Virus record (IMG/VR): IMGVR_UViG_3300028195_000030
Location: 1 to 20,523 of that record
Direction: 5' to 3' (one strand)
Source of the DNA: a virus
DNA length: 20,523 nt
How positions within the stretch are numbered: position 1 is the stretch's first letter; each line of letters starts with the position of its first letter. Position numbers and translations under genes: made by a program. The notes beneath the pieces are model-generated. The model had not been told where the DNA came from and did not search any database. It saw nothing but the letters and a program-made list of their open reading frames with translations. Positions 502 through 18,635 of this stretch are shown one piece after another.

Positions 502-885
502 TTATATTTTATTTTTCCACACCCTAATAAATTCTTTCTGTGCCCAATTCTCCGCCTTTTCTTCATATCTATTATCGTCATGGTGATGACCACCTTTTTC
601 TATAGCATAAGCAGTTTCCATTTCATAATCCTTTTTATATTTAGACTTACCCATCTTTTTGGCATCTTTAGCATGGTCGATTTCATGTAAAACTGTAATA
701 TAAAAATCTTTAACGGATGAATAAGATGATCTTATATTGATAGTGTCTCTATCCACATCGTAGTCAGCTTTATCTGGACCATTGGTGATTTTTACTTTTG
801 ATTTTAACTTATATTGTTTTACGAGCTGTTCCGCAAATTCTATATAATCAACTCGTTCTAATAATAGATGTTTTAATTTAATCAT
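502..885 (-). CDS. HExxH zinc metalloprotease-like protein with possible capsid-targeting leader
   Basis: This 127-residue protein carries the metalloprotease motif HEIDH at 67-71 inside a helix (FYITVLHEIDHAKDA). A downstream acidic helix, YEEKAENWAQKEF (107-119), could supply the third zinc ligand (Glu108 or Glu109), as in the ImmA/IrrE and related minimal gluzincin layouts. An unusual HHHDD cluster sits at 100-104. The first ten residues, MIKLKHLLLE, resemble the short amphipathic leaders of T4-like capsid-targeted proteins, which the prohead protease cuts after (L/I)xE. Here L8-L9-E10 fits, although the next residue, Arg, is atypical. If so, the protein would be packaged and injected with the DNA. 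It overlaps the MscS-like gene by 8 bases, which suggests coupled translation; its own ribosome site is weak. The substrate is unknown. Confidence 0.55.
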   Translation of the reverse strand: MIKLKHLLLERVDYIEFAEQLVKQYKLKSKVKITNGPDKADYDVDRDTINIRSSYSSVKDFYITVLHEIDHAKDAKKMGKSKYKKDYEMETAYAIEKGGHHHDDNRYEEKAENWAQKEFIRVWKNKI

Positions 886-1246
886 TCGTTTTTTTTCTTA
901 ATGTATCTGCTGGTGTCGCATCCTTTGATAAATTATGTCCTATACGGTGTGGTAATATTTTTTCTAATGTTAAATTTTTTAATTTTTCATTTGGTACAAT
1001 CATTTTAGTTCCCCTGTCAGTCATATAAAAAACAGTTTTACTTATTCCTACTCTAACTATACGAGCCTCTCTACCACTAATATAAATCACATCATCATTA
1101 TTAAAATCATTACCAATAAAAATCATTATAGCCTCTAAAGCGTTTGTTATAGATTCTTTAAATAAAAATCCCGCTACTATCATTAGCACCATCCACCCAT
1201 AATGTCCTAACACATCTTCTACTAACAGTTTTATTTCTTGATCCAC
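878..1246 (-). CDS. Mini MscS-like membrane protein (mechanosensitive channel family)
   Basis: This 122-residue protein has one hydrophobic segment (about 16-30, GWMVLMIVAGFLF), an amphipathic stretch (31-45), and a segment at 46-95 that reads like the MscS beta domain. NDFNNDDVIYISG corresponds to the 'F..GD.V.i.g' strand, REARIVRVGISKTVFYMTD to the 'G.V..I.l..T.l...D' strands, and KMIVPNEKL to the highly conserved 'v.IPN..l' turn. Full MscS has about 286 residues, three membrane helices and a C-terminal alpha/beta domain. Here only a pore-helix-like segment and the beta domain remain, followed by a short basic tail. It would sit in the host inner membrane, but whether it can form a channel is unknown. 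The start is a GTG with GGAG seven bases upstream; the nearby ATG is followed directly by TAA. Confidence 0.6.
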   Translation of the reverse strand: MDQEIKLLVEDVLGHYGWMVLMIVAGFLFKESITNALEAIMIFIGNDFNNDDVIYISGREARIVRVGISKTVFYMTDRGTKMIVPNEKLKNLTLEKILPHRIGHNLSKDATPADTLRKKTND

Positions 1247-1278
1247 TTACATTCTCCAAATATATTATATTTCCCTTA

Positions 1279-4820: not shown

Positions 4821-5309
4821 TTATTTAAGTTTAAATCCACTAGAATCACCAACTCCACCTTTGTTTCCACCAACTCCACCTGTGTTTCCACCAACTCCAC
4901 CTGTGTTTCCACCAACTCCACCTGTGTTTCCACCAACTCCACCTTTGTTTCCACCAACTCCACCTGTGTTTCCACCAACTCCACCTGTGTTTCCACCAAC
5001 TCCACCTTTGTTTCCACCAACTCCACCTGTGTTTCCACCAATTCCACCTGTGTTTCCACCAACTCCACCTGTGTTTCCACCAGATGCAACTACTATTGGA
5101 ACCGATTTAATATCACTTCCATTATCATTACTTACAGCTAATGAAACAGAATATACTCCACCGTTTATAAAAGTATGAGTAGGATTTTTATCCGTGGATG
5201 AATTACCATCTCCAAAATCCCAAAAATATGTTAACCCATCACCGATGGAAGTATCATTAAAATTTATTGTTAACGGTGCTGTTCCCTGTTGTATTGACTG
5301 TACTGACAT
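4821..5309 (-). CDS. PKD-domain protein with glycine-rich heptapeptide tail (candidate adhesin)
   Basis: This 162-residue protein has two parts. Residues 1-77 form a PKD (immunoglobulin-like) domain: APLTINFNDTS, then the hallmark WDFGDG at 30-35, NPTHTF at 42-47, and GGVYSVSLAVSNDNGSD. Residues 79-155 are eleven tandem copies of N(T/K)GG(V/I)GG, followed by a short SSGFKLK end. PKD domains are beta-sandwich modules often found on phage and bacterial surface proteins. Strings of GGxGG resemble the polyglycine-II bundles of T-even gp38-type adhesins at fibre tips, but the similarity is of pattern only. It lies between the MG-module genes and the fibre genes, with an AGAGGAG ribosome site. A host-binding or fibre-tip role is inferred. 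The order PKD then glycine repeats differs from gp38, so it may instead be a capsid or tail decoration protein. Confidence 0.6.
   Translation of the reverse strand: MSVQSIQQGTAPLTINFNDTSIGDGLTYFWDFGDGNSSTDKNPTHTFINGGVYSVSLAVSNDNGSDIKSVPIVVASGGNTGGVGGNTGGIGGNTGGVGGNKGGVGGNTGGVGGNTGGVGGNKGGVGGNTGGVGGNTGGVGGNTGGVGGNKGGVGDSSGFKLK
4845..5075 (-). repeat. Eleven tandem 21-base repeats (in-frame minisatellite)
   Basis: Eleven head-to-tail 21-base units encode the heptapeptide N(T/K)GG(V/I)GG inside the PKD-protein gene. Units are nearly identical. The main variation is one base that switches Thr to Lys (units 4, 7 and 11 are Lys), plus one Val-to-Ile change in unit 2. The last unit ends in Asp rather than Gly. 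Because 21 is a multiple of three, gain or loss of units keeps the frame. Confidence 0.95.
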
Positions 5310-15133: not shown

Positions 15134-16252
15134 TTATCTTTCCACTTTGAAACTGTTCTTTTCGTCAAAATATTGAACAGTTTCATCGGCAGTACCACTA
15201 CCACTTACTATTTTATAATTTATTCTGTAAAATCGTTCTGATTGTAATCCGTTCATCCAGAAGTTAAAATAGTTTCCGGTTGAATCACAACTAACTACTG
15301 AACCACTGCCAAACGGAACAATAACATCATCTGTATAAGCATCTTTTATTTGATAATATGTACTGCCACTTGGAAGAGTTTTTACCGTATTATATCCGGT
15401 AGTATATTGAGTTGATGAATATGACCGTTCTGGAAACATTTCCCTACCAACAACTCTAAATTTTACTTTTGAATTTTCTTTATACTTTTCTCTAAACCCT
15501 CTCATATAAATTTGCACATCTTCTAAATTAGCTGATGATAATGCTGTTAATGAACCAGTTACCCATTTTGAATCATCCCAAACTACTTCTAATTTTGGGG
15601 GATAAATTGTGTGAGTTTCCCTTGAGAAAAAACTGAAATTTCCATATCGTGTAGTATTTCCTTCTTCAACATCAGAATCAGTATTTCCAATGCTACCACT
15701 TCTTTTTACCATAAATCCCTCGTTTGAAACTGTACTGTGTAACCATTTCCACATAATATCAGTTACATCCATTCTTACATCTGCTGGTTCATTTGTAAAA
15801 GATTGTGATGCTTCGTATCCACTTCCACTATACCACGTTCCACCAGATCCAGAAACAGTATTCCATTGGGTTCTTGTTATCCCATTATCTTTCCATTTCC
15901 AACCTGCTCCATCTTCTACGATTGGAGAAAGATTATATCTTCCAGATCCATTCTCCCATGATTGACTTACTGGATATGAGTATAAAGTTTGATCTACATT
16001 CAATGCAGATGAATTTGCATCAAATAAATTTAAATAAAATTTTGTGCTTGAACCGGAAGTTATTAAACCAGATGATACTGATTGAGAAATATAAGTTAAA
16101 TCAAATTTAACGAGTGCTCTTGAAACATATATTTGAGTTCCGGCTACATTCATATCTTTTCTTATTTCTAAAATTTCATCCAACCCTGTATTCATGCTAT
16201 GACTTTGTTCGTAAAGTGTTGTGTCCTTTTCACTAAATTCAAAATAATGCAT
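15134..16252 (-). CDS. DNRLRE-domain-like structural protein of the baseplate region
   Basis: This 372-residue protein has an N-terminal part (about 1-226) with the landmarks of the DNRLRE family. These are an opening strand with DTTLYEQ and NTGLDEILEIRKDMN, then SRALVKFDLTYIS (44-56), DVTDIMWKWLHS (162-173), GFMVKRS (179-185), and a closing strand PPKLEVVW (218-225). DNRLRE is a beta-sandwich module known from bacterial cell-surface and secreted proteins. The C-terminal part (about 230-372) is another beta-rich region with ARG/LYS-rich strands (MRGFREKYKENSKVKFRVVG). The gene starts in a TAATG overlap with gp6, with GGGAG eight bases upstream, which implies coupled production with the wedge. 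In T4 this position would hold gp7/gp8, but no similarity to those is visible. It is probably a structural replacement or connector. Confidence 0.55.
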   Translation of the reverse strand: MHYFEFSEKDTTLYEQSHSMNTGLDEILEIRKDMNVAGTQIYVSRALVKFDLTYISQSVSSGLITSGSSTKFYLNLFDANSSALNVDQTLYSYPVSQSWENGSGRYNLSPIVEDGAGWKWKDNGITRTQWNTVSGSGGTWYSGSGYEASQSFTNEPADVRMDVTDIMWKWLHSTVSNEGFMVKRSGSIGNTDSDVEEGNTTRYGNFSFFSRETHTIYPPKLEVVWDDSKWVTGSLTALSSANLEDVQIYMRGFREKYKENSKVKFRVVGREMFPERSYSSTQYTTGYNTVKTLPSGSTYYQIKDAYTDDVIVPFGSGSVVSCDSTGNYFNFWMNGLQSERFYRINYKIVSGSGTADETVQYFDEKNSFKVER

Positions 16253-18180
16253 TATATATCTCCCAATACTCTTCCCCTAATATCTGTATCTGGGAATTTA
16301 ATTTCAAAAATTGCTGGATCAACCGATGGGTAAACTGTCCCATTAAATGTCGCACTTTGAATATCATAAATATTATCTGAATATCCAGAAGATGTTCCCC
16401 ATTTGTTTTCTACTATAACCAACTCATCTCTATTTTCAAGAGGTTTAACTATTGTAGCTACACCATCAACTTTTAATAACTCTGAAGCTATTCCTGATAG
16501 AATAATTGGTTGATTTATTTGCCACCTATCTATATTAAAATATGTTTTTAGTGAATCTACACACTTCAACAATACTTCATTTTTATTAAATCCTTTTTTT
16601 GTATAAATTGCAAATTGCAATCCTATATTTATTACCCAAGCATCTTTTAATTGAACTGCATCTGTCATCATTCTATATTGACTTAAATAAATTTTTACAT
16701 TTTCTTTTACTGCAGTATTTAGTCCGACTAATTTTTTACTTTGATTATATCCCAACATATACATATTTAATGCTAATGGGTTTGGTTGAAATGTTGTATC
16801 TGACTCATTTTGACCTGTTGCAGAAACTTGTTCATCTTGGATCATATAAACTTTAGATATATTGCCATATTTTGATGGTAATGAATATACACGAGTTATA
16901 TAATCATCCTTGGTTACTGCACGACCTTGAGCTTGAAAATATGCAAGTGCATTAGTTCGTACATTTTCTATTGTTTCACCACTACTACCACCTGTTGCTG
17001 GGTTTGGGTTAGTAACTGCTATAGAATTTTGAGTACTTGTTTTTAAACTCGCATCTAATGTTAAAGAATTATCAAACTCTGAACTTATCAATGAAATGTT
17101 ATTTATTCCGTTTGATGCGACATTATCACTAATACCACCACCGTAACTATATTTTATTGTTAATGTAGTATTTGTTGGAACTTGACCATACGTATCTGTA
17201 TTTAAAAAGTTTGCTGGATCAAATGAAGTATCAAGAAAACTTGGAGTTCCTGGTAGACTAGACCCAACGTTATTTGGGTTTGGTATTATTTCTTCATCTG
17301 CTCCAGAAGCTACTCCTGAGCCGAACCTTAATTCGGTTTTTTCGTCTGTTCTAATGTAAGTTTTAAATCTCTTTGAAGTTTTTACAAGTTTCAATAAAAA
17401 TGGTGCAAAATTTCTACCATTCACTAAATCTGGTGAATTCTTTGAAGTGTTTTCAAAGTCTGCATATACAGTATCTTGTGCTAAAAATGGGACTTCATAC
17501 CATTTGTTTCCATCACTATCCGTTACTGAAATTATTTCTAAAATTGGAGTGTTTTGTAAAACTACTCTTTTATATTTTTCAGCAGAACCAAATGTAATAT
17601 ATTCAGTAGAAACCGTTCCACTTACAGCCTTTGCTGATTTTTTAAGTAACCACTTTGTAATGTTACCACTATCATCCACTTCAAATATGTCTTCTTGTCG
17701 TGGACTCATTGAACTTGAATTTCTAAAAATTACATCATCCACACTTCTAAATACCGTGCCATTTGTTGAAGTTGCTTGTAATCCGTTGGATACATTAAGA
17801 CAATAATCTTCATTTGGTTGCCGTTTTCCATCTACTACATTATTTGGATCTGATGGAACGGTTTGGAACACGTCAAGTGTTACCGAAGATGGAGATGATA
17901 ATTTGGGCTTATATCCATATCCTTGAACTATTTCATAAATTGTTTTCTTTTCTTCTGCAAATGATAATAAACTTTCTTTAAATTGTTCATCAATATAATA
18001 TGATAAAACGTCTCCAACATATGATGCCATTTCTATAAACATCATCCCAGGGTCTGCTTCATTAAAATCATTATATGTGTTTGGGAAATAGGTCTGTGCA
18101 TATTCTATTAACCCATCCCTGAAACTACTAAAATCTTTATTTAAATATTTTACATCTCTGCTAAGTCCATGTTTAGCCAT
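16252..18180 (-). CDS. 6: Baseplate wedge protein gp6-like
   Basis: This 642-residue protein is close to the usual length of T4 gp6 (about 660). The N-terminal block, YLNKDFSSFRDGLIEYAQTY followed by FNEADPGMMFIEMASYVGDV (about 37-56), is the gp6/baseplate-J-type signature of T4-like phages. A central segment, ENVRTNALAYFQAQGRAVTK (about 404-423) with DDYITRVYSLPSKYG after it, and the C-terminal FNIDRWQINQPIILSGIASE are also typical. gp6 forms the ring of wedge dimers that surrounds the hub and transmits the conformational change on host contact. It follows the gp25-like gene by 20 bases, with a GGAG site before the ATG, the same order as in marine T4-like phages. Its end overlaps the DNRLRE gene as TAATG. 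No break or missing segment was noticed. Confidence 0.9.
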   Translation of the reverse strand: MAKHGLSRDVKYLNKDFSSFRDGLIEYAQTYFPNTYNDFNEADPGMMFIEMASYVGDVLSYYIDEQFKESLLSFAEEKKTIYEIVQGYGYKPKLSSPSSVTLDVFQTVPSDPNNVVDGKRQPNEDYCLNVSNGLQATSTNGTVFRSVDDVIFRNSSSMSPRQEDIFEVDDSGNITKWLLKKSAKAVSGTVSTEYITFGSAEKYKRVVLQNTPILEIISVTDSDGNKWYEVPFLAQDTVYADFENTSKNSPDLVNGRNFAPFLLKLVKTSKRFKTYIRTDEKTELRFGSGVASGADEEIIPNPNNVGSSLPGTPSFLDTSFDPANFLNTDTYGQVPTNTTLTIKYSYGGGISDNVASNGINNISLISSEFDNSLTLDASLKTSTQNSIAVTNPNPATGGSSGETIENVRTNALAYFQAQGRAVTKDDYITRVYSLPSKYGNISKVYMIQDEQVSATGQNESDTTFQPNPLALNMYMLGYNQSKKLVGLNTAVKENVKIYLSQYRMMTDAVQLKDAWVINIGLQFAIYTKKGFNKNEVLLKCVDSLKTYFNIDRWQINQPIILSGIASELLKVDGVATIVKPLENRDELVIVENKWGTSSGYSDNIYDIQSATFNGTVYPSVDPAIFEIKFPDTDIRGRVLGDI

Positions 18181-18200: not shown

Positions 18201-18635
18201 TCACTGTGCTAATTCACTATATGATTCAAATTGCTCAAAACTTATAGACACTTGTGCAGACATTCCAGGTTCGAATGATAATCCAAAGTCTATTGATATA
18301 TTTACTGTATTTCTTCCGTAATCTGGAAGTTCCACTTTAAGTTTTTTAATATTTACATATGGAAGCCATTGTTCCATAGATTCTCTAATTGCCTCCTCTA
18401 ATTTATCATTTAAATTCTCATCCATTGGTTCAAAAATAACTTCATTTAATCTTGAACCAAATTCTGGTTGACCCACCCTTTCACCCTTCATAGTTTTCAA
18501 TAAATTTACTATATTGTGTTTTGCCTGTTCAAGAGTTGTATTTGTTTGAGTAAAATGACCAGTGTTGGAATATCCCATTGGTAAACTCAGACCAATGGAT
18601 ACATCTGGATTTAAATCTTTTTCTCTTGCTCCCAT
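18201..18635 (-). CDS. 25: Baseplate wedge protein gp25-like (GPW/gp25 family)
   Basis: This 144-residue protein is near the 132 residues of T4 gp25. It has the family's conserved core: a helix ending LLKTMKGERVGQPEFGSRLN (about 46-65), then EVIFEPMDENLNDKLEEAIR, then a basic strand (LPYVNIKKLKVELP) and NTVNISIDFGLSF. The 'GER...P.FGS.L...F' motif is diagnostic for the GPW/gp25 family, which has a lysozyme-like name but works as a structural wedge component and sheath-initiation factor. The start has a GGTAGGAG site. It is immediately followed by gp6, and the two proteins interact in the T4 baseplate core bundle. Confidence is high because both motif and context agree. Confidence 0.92.
   Translation of the reverse strand: MGAREKDLNPDVSIGLSLPMGYSNTGHFTQTNTTLEQAKHNIVNLLKTMKGERVGQPEFGSRLNEVIFEPMDENLNDKLEEAIRESMEQWLPYVNIKKLKVELPDYGRNTVNISIDFGLSFEPGMSAQVSISFEQFESYSELAQ

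Follow-up and report, generated by a model that had tools for sequence, protein, structure and literature searches.

Here we describe mini-MscS, a protein of 122 amino acids encoded in a 20,523-nucleotide IMG/VR virus record (IMGVR_UViG_3300028195_000030), the whole of which was analyzed and is referred to below as the window. Profile comparisons show that this phage protein is homologous to the MscS beta domain, and its predicted fold is a known one and not a new one. On balance, our analyses favor the interpretation that mini-MscS is a minimal member of the MscS superfold, specific to phages and composed of TM3 and the beta domain only, which would self-assemble into a membrane ring or pore. 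MscS is a standard model for membrane-tension sensing, and how little of MscS suffices is an open question. What is new is the mini-MscS form and its abundance in uncultivated phages; loss of the C-terminal domain was already known from TcMscS of Trypanosoma cruzi and from MscS proteins of Flavobacteriales.

The mini-MscS open reading frame occupies positions 878..1246 of the window on the minus strand and is, judged by its sequence, real and not a product of chance. The GTG start and the length of 122 residues given in a preliminary description of this DNA, which had named no strand, are confirmed, and both peptides quoted there, GNDFNNDDVIYISG and KMIVPNEKL, are present exactly in the translation. 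A GGAG that is likely the ribosome-binding site was read from the sequence 7 nucleotides upstream of the GTG (1254..1257, minus), as was an in-frame TAA directly before it (1247-1249, minus), and together these support the start codon well. Because the TAA abuts the GTG, the N terminus cannot be extended without a frameshift, and no further helices can be encoded. As to a split gene that might supply TM1 and TM2, the open reading frame list of the window contains no multi-helix gene adjoining mini-MscS. A T4 late promoter motif upstream of mini-MscS, TATAAATA, was present in 1 of 88 distinct sequences, which is not above background and is uninformative. The 20.5-kb record also carries baseplate genes of a contractile-tailed phage, one gp6-like (16252-18180) and one gp25-like (18201-18635).

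Elsewhere in the window, an open reading frame of 79 amino acids (1298-1537, minus) resembles by eye an MshEN/T2SSE_N type repeat (KLGKLLLNTNTITKRQLSKAIQNQ) and has a weak match to Pfam DUF4388 (E=0.024); its relatives (L073:11881-12453) form the N-terminal part of a 190-amino acid protein with a membrane segment and a coiled coil. Positions 4847-5082, within the open reading frame 4821-5309 (minus), consist of 11 tandem copies of a 21-base unit coding for GGVGGNT-type repeats. This array follows a PKD-like domain, and the opposite strand is open too.

Pfam, profile-profile and fold comparisons of mini-MscS are concordant. The Pfam profile of the MS_channel beta domain, PF00924, covers residues 32-91 with a score of 24.8 bits, above the curated cut-off of 20.2 (E=2.4e-5), and was matched singly by 23 of the 24 family members scanned, with a best E value of 1.5e-7. 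A profile built from 32 members and compared with six cellular MscS proteins aligned over residues 25-94 (E=4.4e-6, probability 86.7). This alignment takes in the kink, TM3b and the beta domain, and identity to the cellular beta domains is about 26%. Direct sequence searches of the PDB gave weak matches (best E 0.04-0.25), among which those to DUF871 and a cell-division-control protein were at chance level. Two AlphaFold2 models were made from alignments of 24 and 32 sequences; both are single-chain models of moderate confidence, with mean pLDDT of 72.8 and 75.0 and pTM of 0.44 and 0.46, respectively. Each model was compared with the PDB; at E<=0.001, one had 31 matches and the other 26, these being MscS-type channels. 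Two of them, 3udc and 3t9n, carry only the label "membrane protein", and we take them to be a bacterial MscS; TcMscS was among the listed matches. Profile and fold thus bear out the earlier reading that the phage protein combines an MscS beta domain with a single membrane segment and lacks the C-terminal domain.

Both models place a helix at residues 2-28, a break at residue 29 and a second helix at residues 30-45 (30-43), followed by five beta strands and a short helix after the PN turn. A TM3-type kink between TM3a and TM3b is thus predicted by the models. The TM3a equivalent contains the 14-residue apolar membrane segment (codons 16-29; 1160..1201, minus), defined by apolar-run analysis. 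Codons 30-45 (1112..1159, minus) comprise the K30-E31 kink and the second helix, equivalent to TM3b, with N35 and with position 39, which is G or A in the family; the models, column statistics and the profile alignment delimit this part. The beta domain (codons 46-96; 959..1111, minus) includes GNDFNNDD and has its PN turn at codons 85-86 (989-994, minus), as indicated by Pfam, alignment, models and fold search. The C terminus extends about 26 residues past the beta domain, and codons 97-122 plus the stop (878..958, minus) form a poorly conserved tail with pLDDT mostly below 50-65, the last 20 residues or so being disordered in the models. TM1, TM2 and a C-terminal alpha/beta domain were found in none of the family members by apolar-segment analysis and in the models.

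Column statistics were taken over 85 distinct family sequences, and an apolar run was defined as one that contains none of the residues D, E, K, R, N, Q and H; many of the sequences are close relatives, and the counts that follow therefore overstate the number of independent cases. The apolar run is 14 residues long (16-29) in 74 of 85 sequences and 18 in the other 11, whereas it is at least 18 in the equivalent helix of the cellular relatives examined. In the window protein, residues 16-29 are the sole long apolar run. Directly after the apolar span, every one of the 85 sequences has K or R at position 30; position 39 is G or A, likewise without exception, W18 is found in 84 and N35 in 57. 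Residues 30-96 are more positive than residues 1-15 in every sequence (means +2.9 vs -2.3). By the positive-inside rule, the more positive C-terminal side fits an N-out/C-in topology, which is also the orientation of MscS TM3. Across 444 pairs, a median dN/dS of 0.07 indicates purifying selection on mini-MscS. The beta domain is the most constrained part (pN/pS of 0.13, against 0.25 for the helix).

An apolar segment of just 14 residues in most members could also mean that mini-MscS conducts nothing and is a membrane ring or anchor, its beta ring binding a partner of phage or host origin, for instance the lipoproteins encoded next to it (see below). The charged residues R62, R65, K81, E95 and K96, which are invariant in the family, could make a binding surface. 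We regard this explanation as doubtful. Features of a pore helix are retained, namely K/R30, G/A39 and, in 57/85 sequences, N35, and TcMscS conducts although its helices, too, are shorter than a normal bilayer requires (PMC12334622).

Mini-MscS occurs near-exclusively in virus contigs. Successively broader queries of IMG/VR confirmed at least 60, 136 and 197 relatives, including two copies 99% identical to the window protein and many more distant ones. No acceptable match was present in the genomes of isolated phages, and no PHROGs family contains mini-MscS. A match in Bacteroides phage BF1-TP2 runs antisense to a large gene and is due to chance, and Acinetobacter phage matches to L057 (E 0.3 or worse) were rejected. 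About 85,000 species genomes of bacteria and archaea were scanned by pattern, which gave one match, in a contig of a Flavobacteriales MAG, and a search of 296 genomes of the same order returned that genome only. The MAG contig shares its gene order with lineage-2 phage contigs and thus probably stems from a phage and was binned together with the MAG. No phage record searched has more than one PF00924 locus at E<=0.01. The family comprises lineage 1, with window-like members, lineage 2, with an extended N terminus, some intermediate groups, and clade 3, which is distinct in having one residue inserted in the beta domain and is found on contigs of 29-200 kb. In the open literature, which takes in few subscription journals and preprints, we found no paper on a phage mini-MscS.

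The preliminary description had proposed that the protein could co-assemble with or block host MscS, which would make it a dominant-negative or modulating subunit entering host MscS rings. The ring core, consisting of the beta domain and TM3b, is common to both proteins, and the MAG with the one, probably misbinned, mini-MscS copy also encodes a full-length MscS. Nothing else points to such mixed rings, and we consider them very unlikely: identity to cellular beta domains is low, as given above, and the invariant charged residues differ from those of the cellular proteins examined. The family is moreover conserved across different phage groups with different gene contexts, which fits self-assembly better.

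Downstream of mini-MscS in the window lies an open reading frame for a zincin-like metallopeptidase (502..885, minus; PF18818, E=4.3e-7). The 8-base overlap between the two genes was correctly described earlier; the suggestion that they are jointly expressed as a meaningful pair found no support, as several envelope-type genes sit between mini-MscS and the metallopeptidase in the other lineage-1 phages inspected. An exported protein resembling thioredoxin (PF00085, E=1.5e-6), one lipoprotein-like and one small membrane protein are encoded in this lineage-1 module, together with a PAP2 phosphatase in some phages. The module is missing from the window phage and from the two copies nearly identical to it, and it is because of this absence that the metallopeptidase overlaps mini-MscS there. 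The overlap is a local feature of these phages. Also part of the lineage-1 module, where it is conserved beside mini-MscS, and absent from the window phage is a 420-amino acid protein with a signal-like N terminus that on inspection by eye resembles an outer-membrane barrel and has no Pfam match (L073:10516-11778, L076:10435-11721, L087:10472-11740). The N termini of the metallopeptidases (window 502-885, minus; L076:14343-14735, L073:14723-15133, L069:16065-16457) follow the pattern M..LK..LL.E|R, in the window MIKLKHLLLE|RVDY, and resemble the short leaders that target T4 internal head proteins to the capsid; the enzyme may thus be packaged and injected. Several further open reading frames on clade-3 contigs begin with MKKVKLFEEFINE or similar.

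In many lineage-2 loci, a lipoprotein-like open reading frame of 70-110 amino acids overlaps the mini-MscS stop by four bases, an arrangement that argues for the anchor function considered above. Examples are L098:10429-10659 and L123:10426-10725, which have no confident family match. The product could be a partner of mini-MscS or a spanin-like protein.

In clade 3, mini-MscS has peptidoglycan hydrolase genes among its neighbors. In L059 and L134, an Amidase_2 gene (PF01510, E=1.1e-10) ends at the mini-MscS start, and other clade-3 loci have a glucosaminidase gene (PF01832) at 0.4-0.6 kb or an SLT gene (PF01464, near its cut-off) at 0.9-3.2 kb. With full records searched per hydrolase family and compared with random placement, a hydrolase lay within 1.5 kb in 4 of 7 clade-3 sub-clade representatives, against 0.41 expected (P about 2e-4). 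This link is no more than suggestive, since the 1.5-kb limit and the representatives were picked after the loci had been seen, these representatives are partly related to one another, and late genes of phages tend to cluster in any case. In two clade-3 representatives the closest hydrolase is over 5 kb from mini-MscS. PF01832, PF01464, PF01510 and PF13539 were not found in the lineage-1 and lineage-2 records searched, and mini-MscS was not seen adjoining lysis genes in the window. Peptidase_M15_4, considered as a lysis enzyme, was not found in these records. In several clade-3 loci, a PAP2 gene overlaps the mini-MscS start. PAP2-family phosphatase genes whose products look soluble adjoin mini-MscS in clade 3 and belong to the envelope-type module of some lineage-1 phages (L135:7181-8017, L139:7178-8014, L059:4609-5283, L069:15431-16078). 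A PAP2 gene was present in 3 of the 13 records searched, so it is clade-specific and was rejected as a universal partner of mini-MscS.

We return to the self-assembling ring or pore of TM3 and the beta domain. Its N terminus would lie in the periplasm and its C terminus in the cytoplasm, and the beta domains would associate with one another to form a ring, for which MscS and TcMscS suggest seven subunits as the probable number. A small pore, with the short kinked helices as its lining, may then form where the host inner membrane is locally thinned. Such a pore would most likely serve phage control of the host envelope, to judge from the gene neighbors in one clade. If this control is tied to lysis, mini-MscS would cause a leak or depolarization in the manner of a pinholin; a role of this kind is possible, with the chances somewhat against it.

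Alternatively, mini-MscS could be an osmotic safety valve, a channel gated by tension that guards the infected cell against premature bursting, upon osmotic downshift or when phage enzymes have weakened the wall, and that has no direct function in lysis. The fold elements are the same as in tension-gated MscS and TcMscS (PMC12334622), the beta domain is under strong purifying selection, and mechanosensitive-channel genes of other types (MscL, larger MscS) have been reported in virus surveys, some of them rising with salinity (PMC13288924; PMC6163359). We nevertheless think a valve rather improbable. Mini-MscS lacks TM1 and TM2, the usual tension-sensing elements, and its neighbors in clade 3 are peptidoglycan hydrolases, not osmolyte genes. 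Because of these neighbors we favor a lysis role over a pure osmotic valve, although the evidence gives no firm choice between the two. That phages have reduced MscS to a 14-residue helix and a beta ring for use as a lysis pore, which would make mini-MscS a pinholin derived from MscS and, among working channels with the MscS fold, the smallest, we consider unlikely. Should mini-MscS conduct, nature would have provided a test case for the minimal mechanosensor; should its role be in lysis, phages would have made a pore out of a bacterial channel fold.

To our knowledge, mini-MscS is smaller than any known MscS, no TM3-only channel is known, and no working channel that also lacks TM2 has been described. 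Bacterial MscS (E. coli 2oau/4hwa, H. pylori 4hw9) shares with mini-MscS the TM3a-kink-TM3b arrangement, the beta domain and the PN turn, with KD at the kink of H. pylori MscS as a further likeness. By contrast, mini-MscS is devoid of the TM1, TM2 and C-terminal domain of these proteins, and identity is about 21-26% over the common part. Short cellular MscS proteins of Flavobacteriales (L232-L234, 177-181 amino acids) resemble mini-MscS in having the beta domain and no C-terminal domain, but they possess three apolar segments instead of one, with an apolar run of at least 18 in the equivalent helix.

Pinholins lack a beta domain. No mini-MscS sequence match to holin families was found in Pfam, PHROGs or NCBIfam, yet mini-MscS is, like holins, a small phage membrane protein, with 122 amino acids, one apolar segment and a phage-borne gene. 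Pinholin S21-68 of phage 21, which forms heptameric channels of about 2 nm (PMC9636201), is a small phage membrane protein that makes the kind of pore proposed here for mini-MscS. MscS or MscL genes are also carried by giant viruses, among them an Aureococcus virus (261 amino acids), a Tetraselmis virus and a Cafeteria virus (PMC6163359). These viruses infect eukaryotes, the MscS protein has three predicted membrane helices, and the genes do not belong to the mini-MscS family; the Aureococcus virus protein was among the matches in a viral fold search with mini-MscS.

TcMscS of T. cruzi, with 165 amino acids (PDB 9bgq, 9bgt), has been described as the minimal functional MscS (PMC12334622). Built from TM2, an N helix, TM3 and the beta domain, it dispenses with TM1 and the C-terminal domain and has been proven to form a heptameric channel; its helices, too short for a normal bilayer, conduct nonetheless, and gating involves a deformed membrane and pore lipids (PMC12334622). 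TcMscS and mini-MscS have in common a TM3 with a kink and the beta domain, and both lack TM1 and the C-terminal alpha/beta domain. TcMscS is the larger protein and retains TM2 and the N helix, whereas mini-MscS has one apolar helix in 122 amino acids. The mini-MscS family thus goes beyond TcMscS in dropping TM2 too, and most of its members have fixed a 14-residue apolar span. At about 21 Å, this helix would pose a thin-membrane geometry like that of TcMscS.
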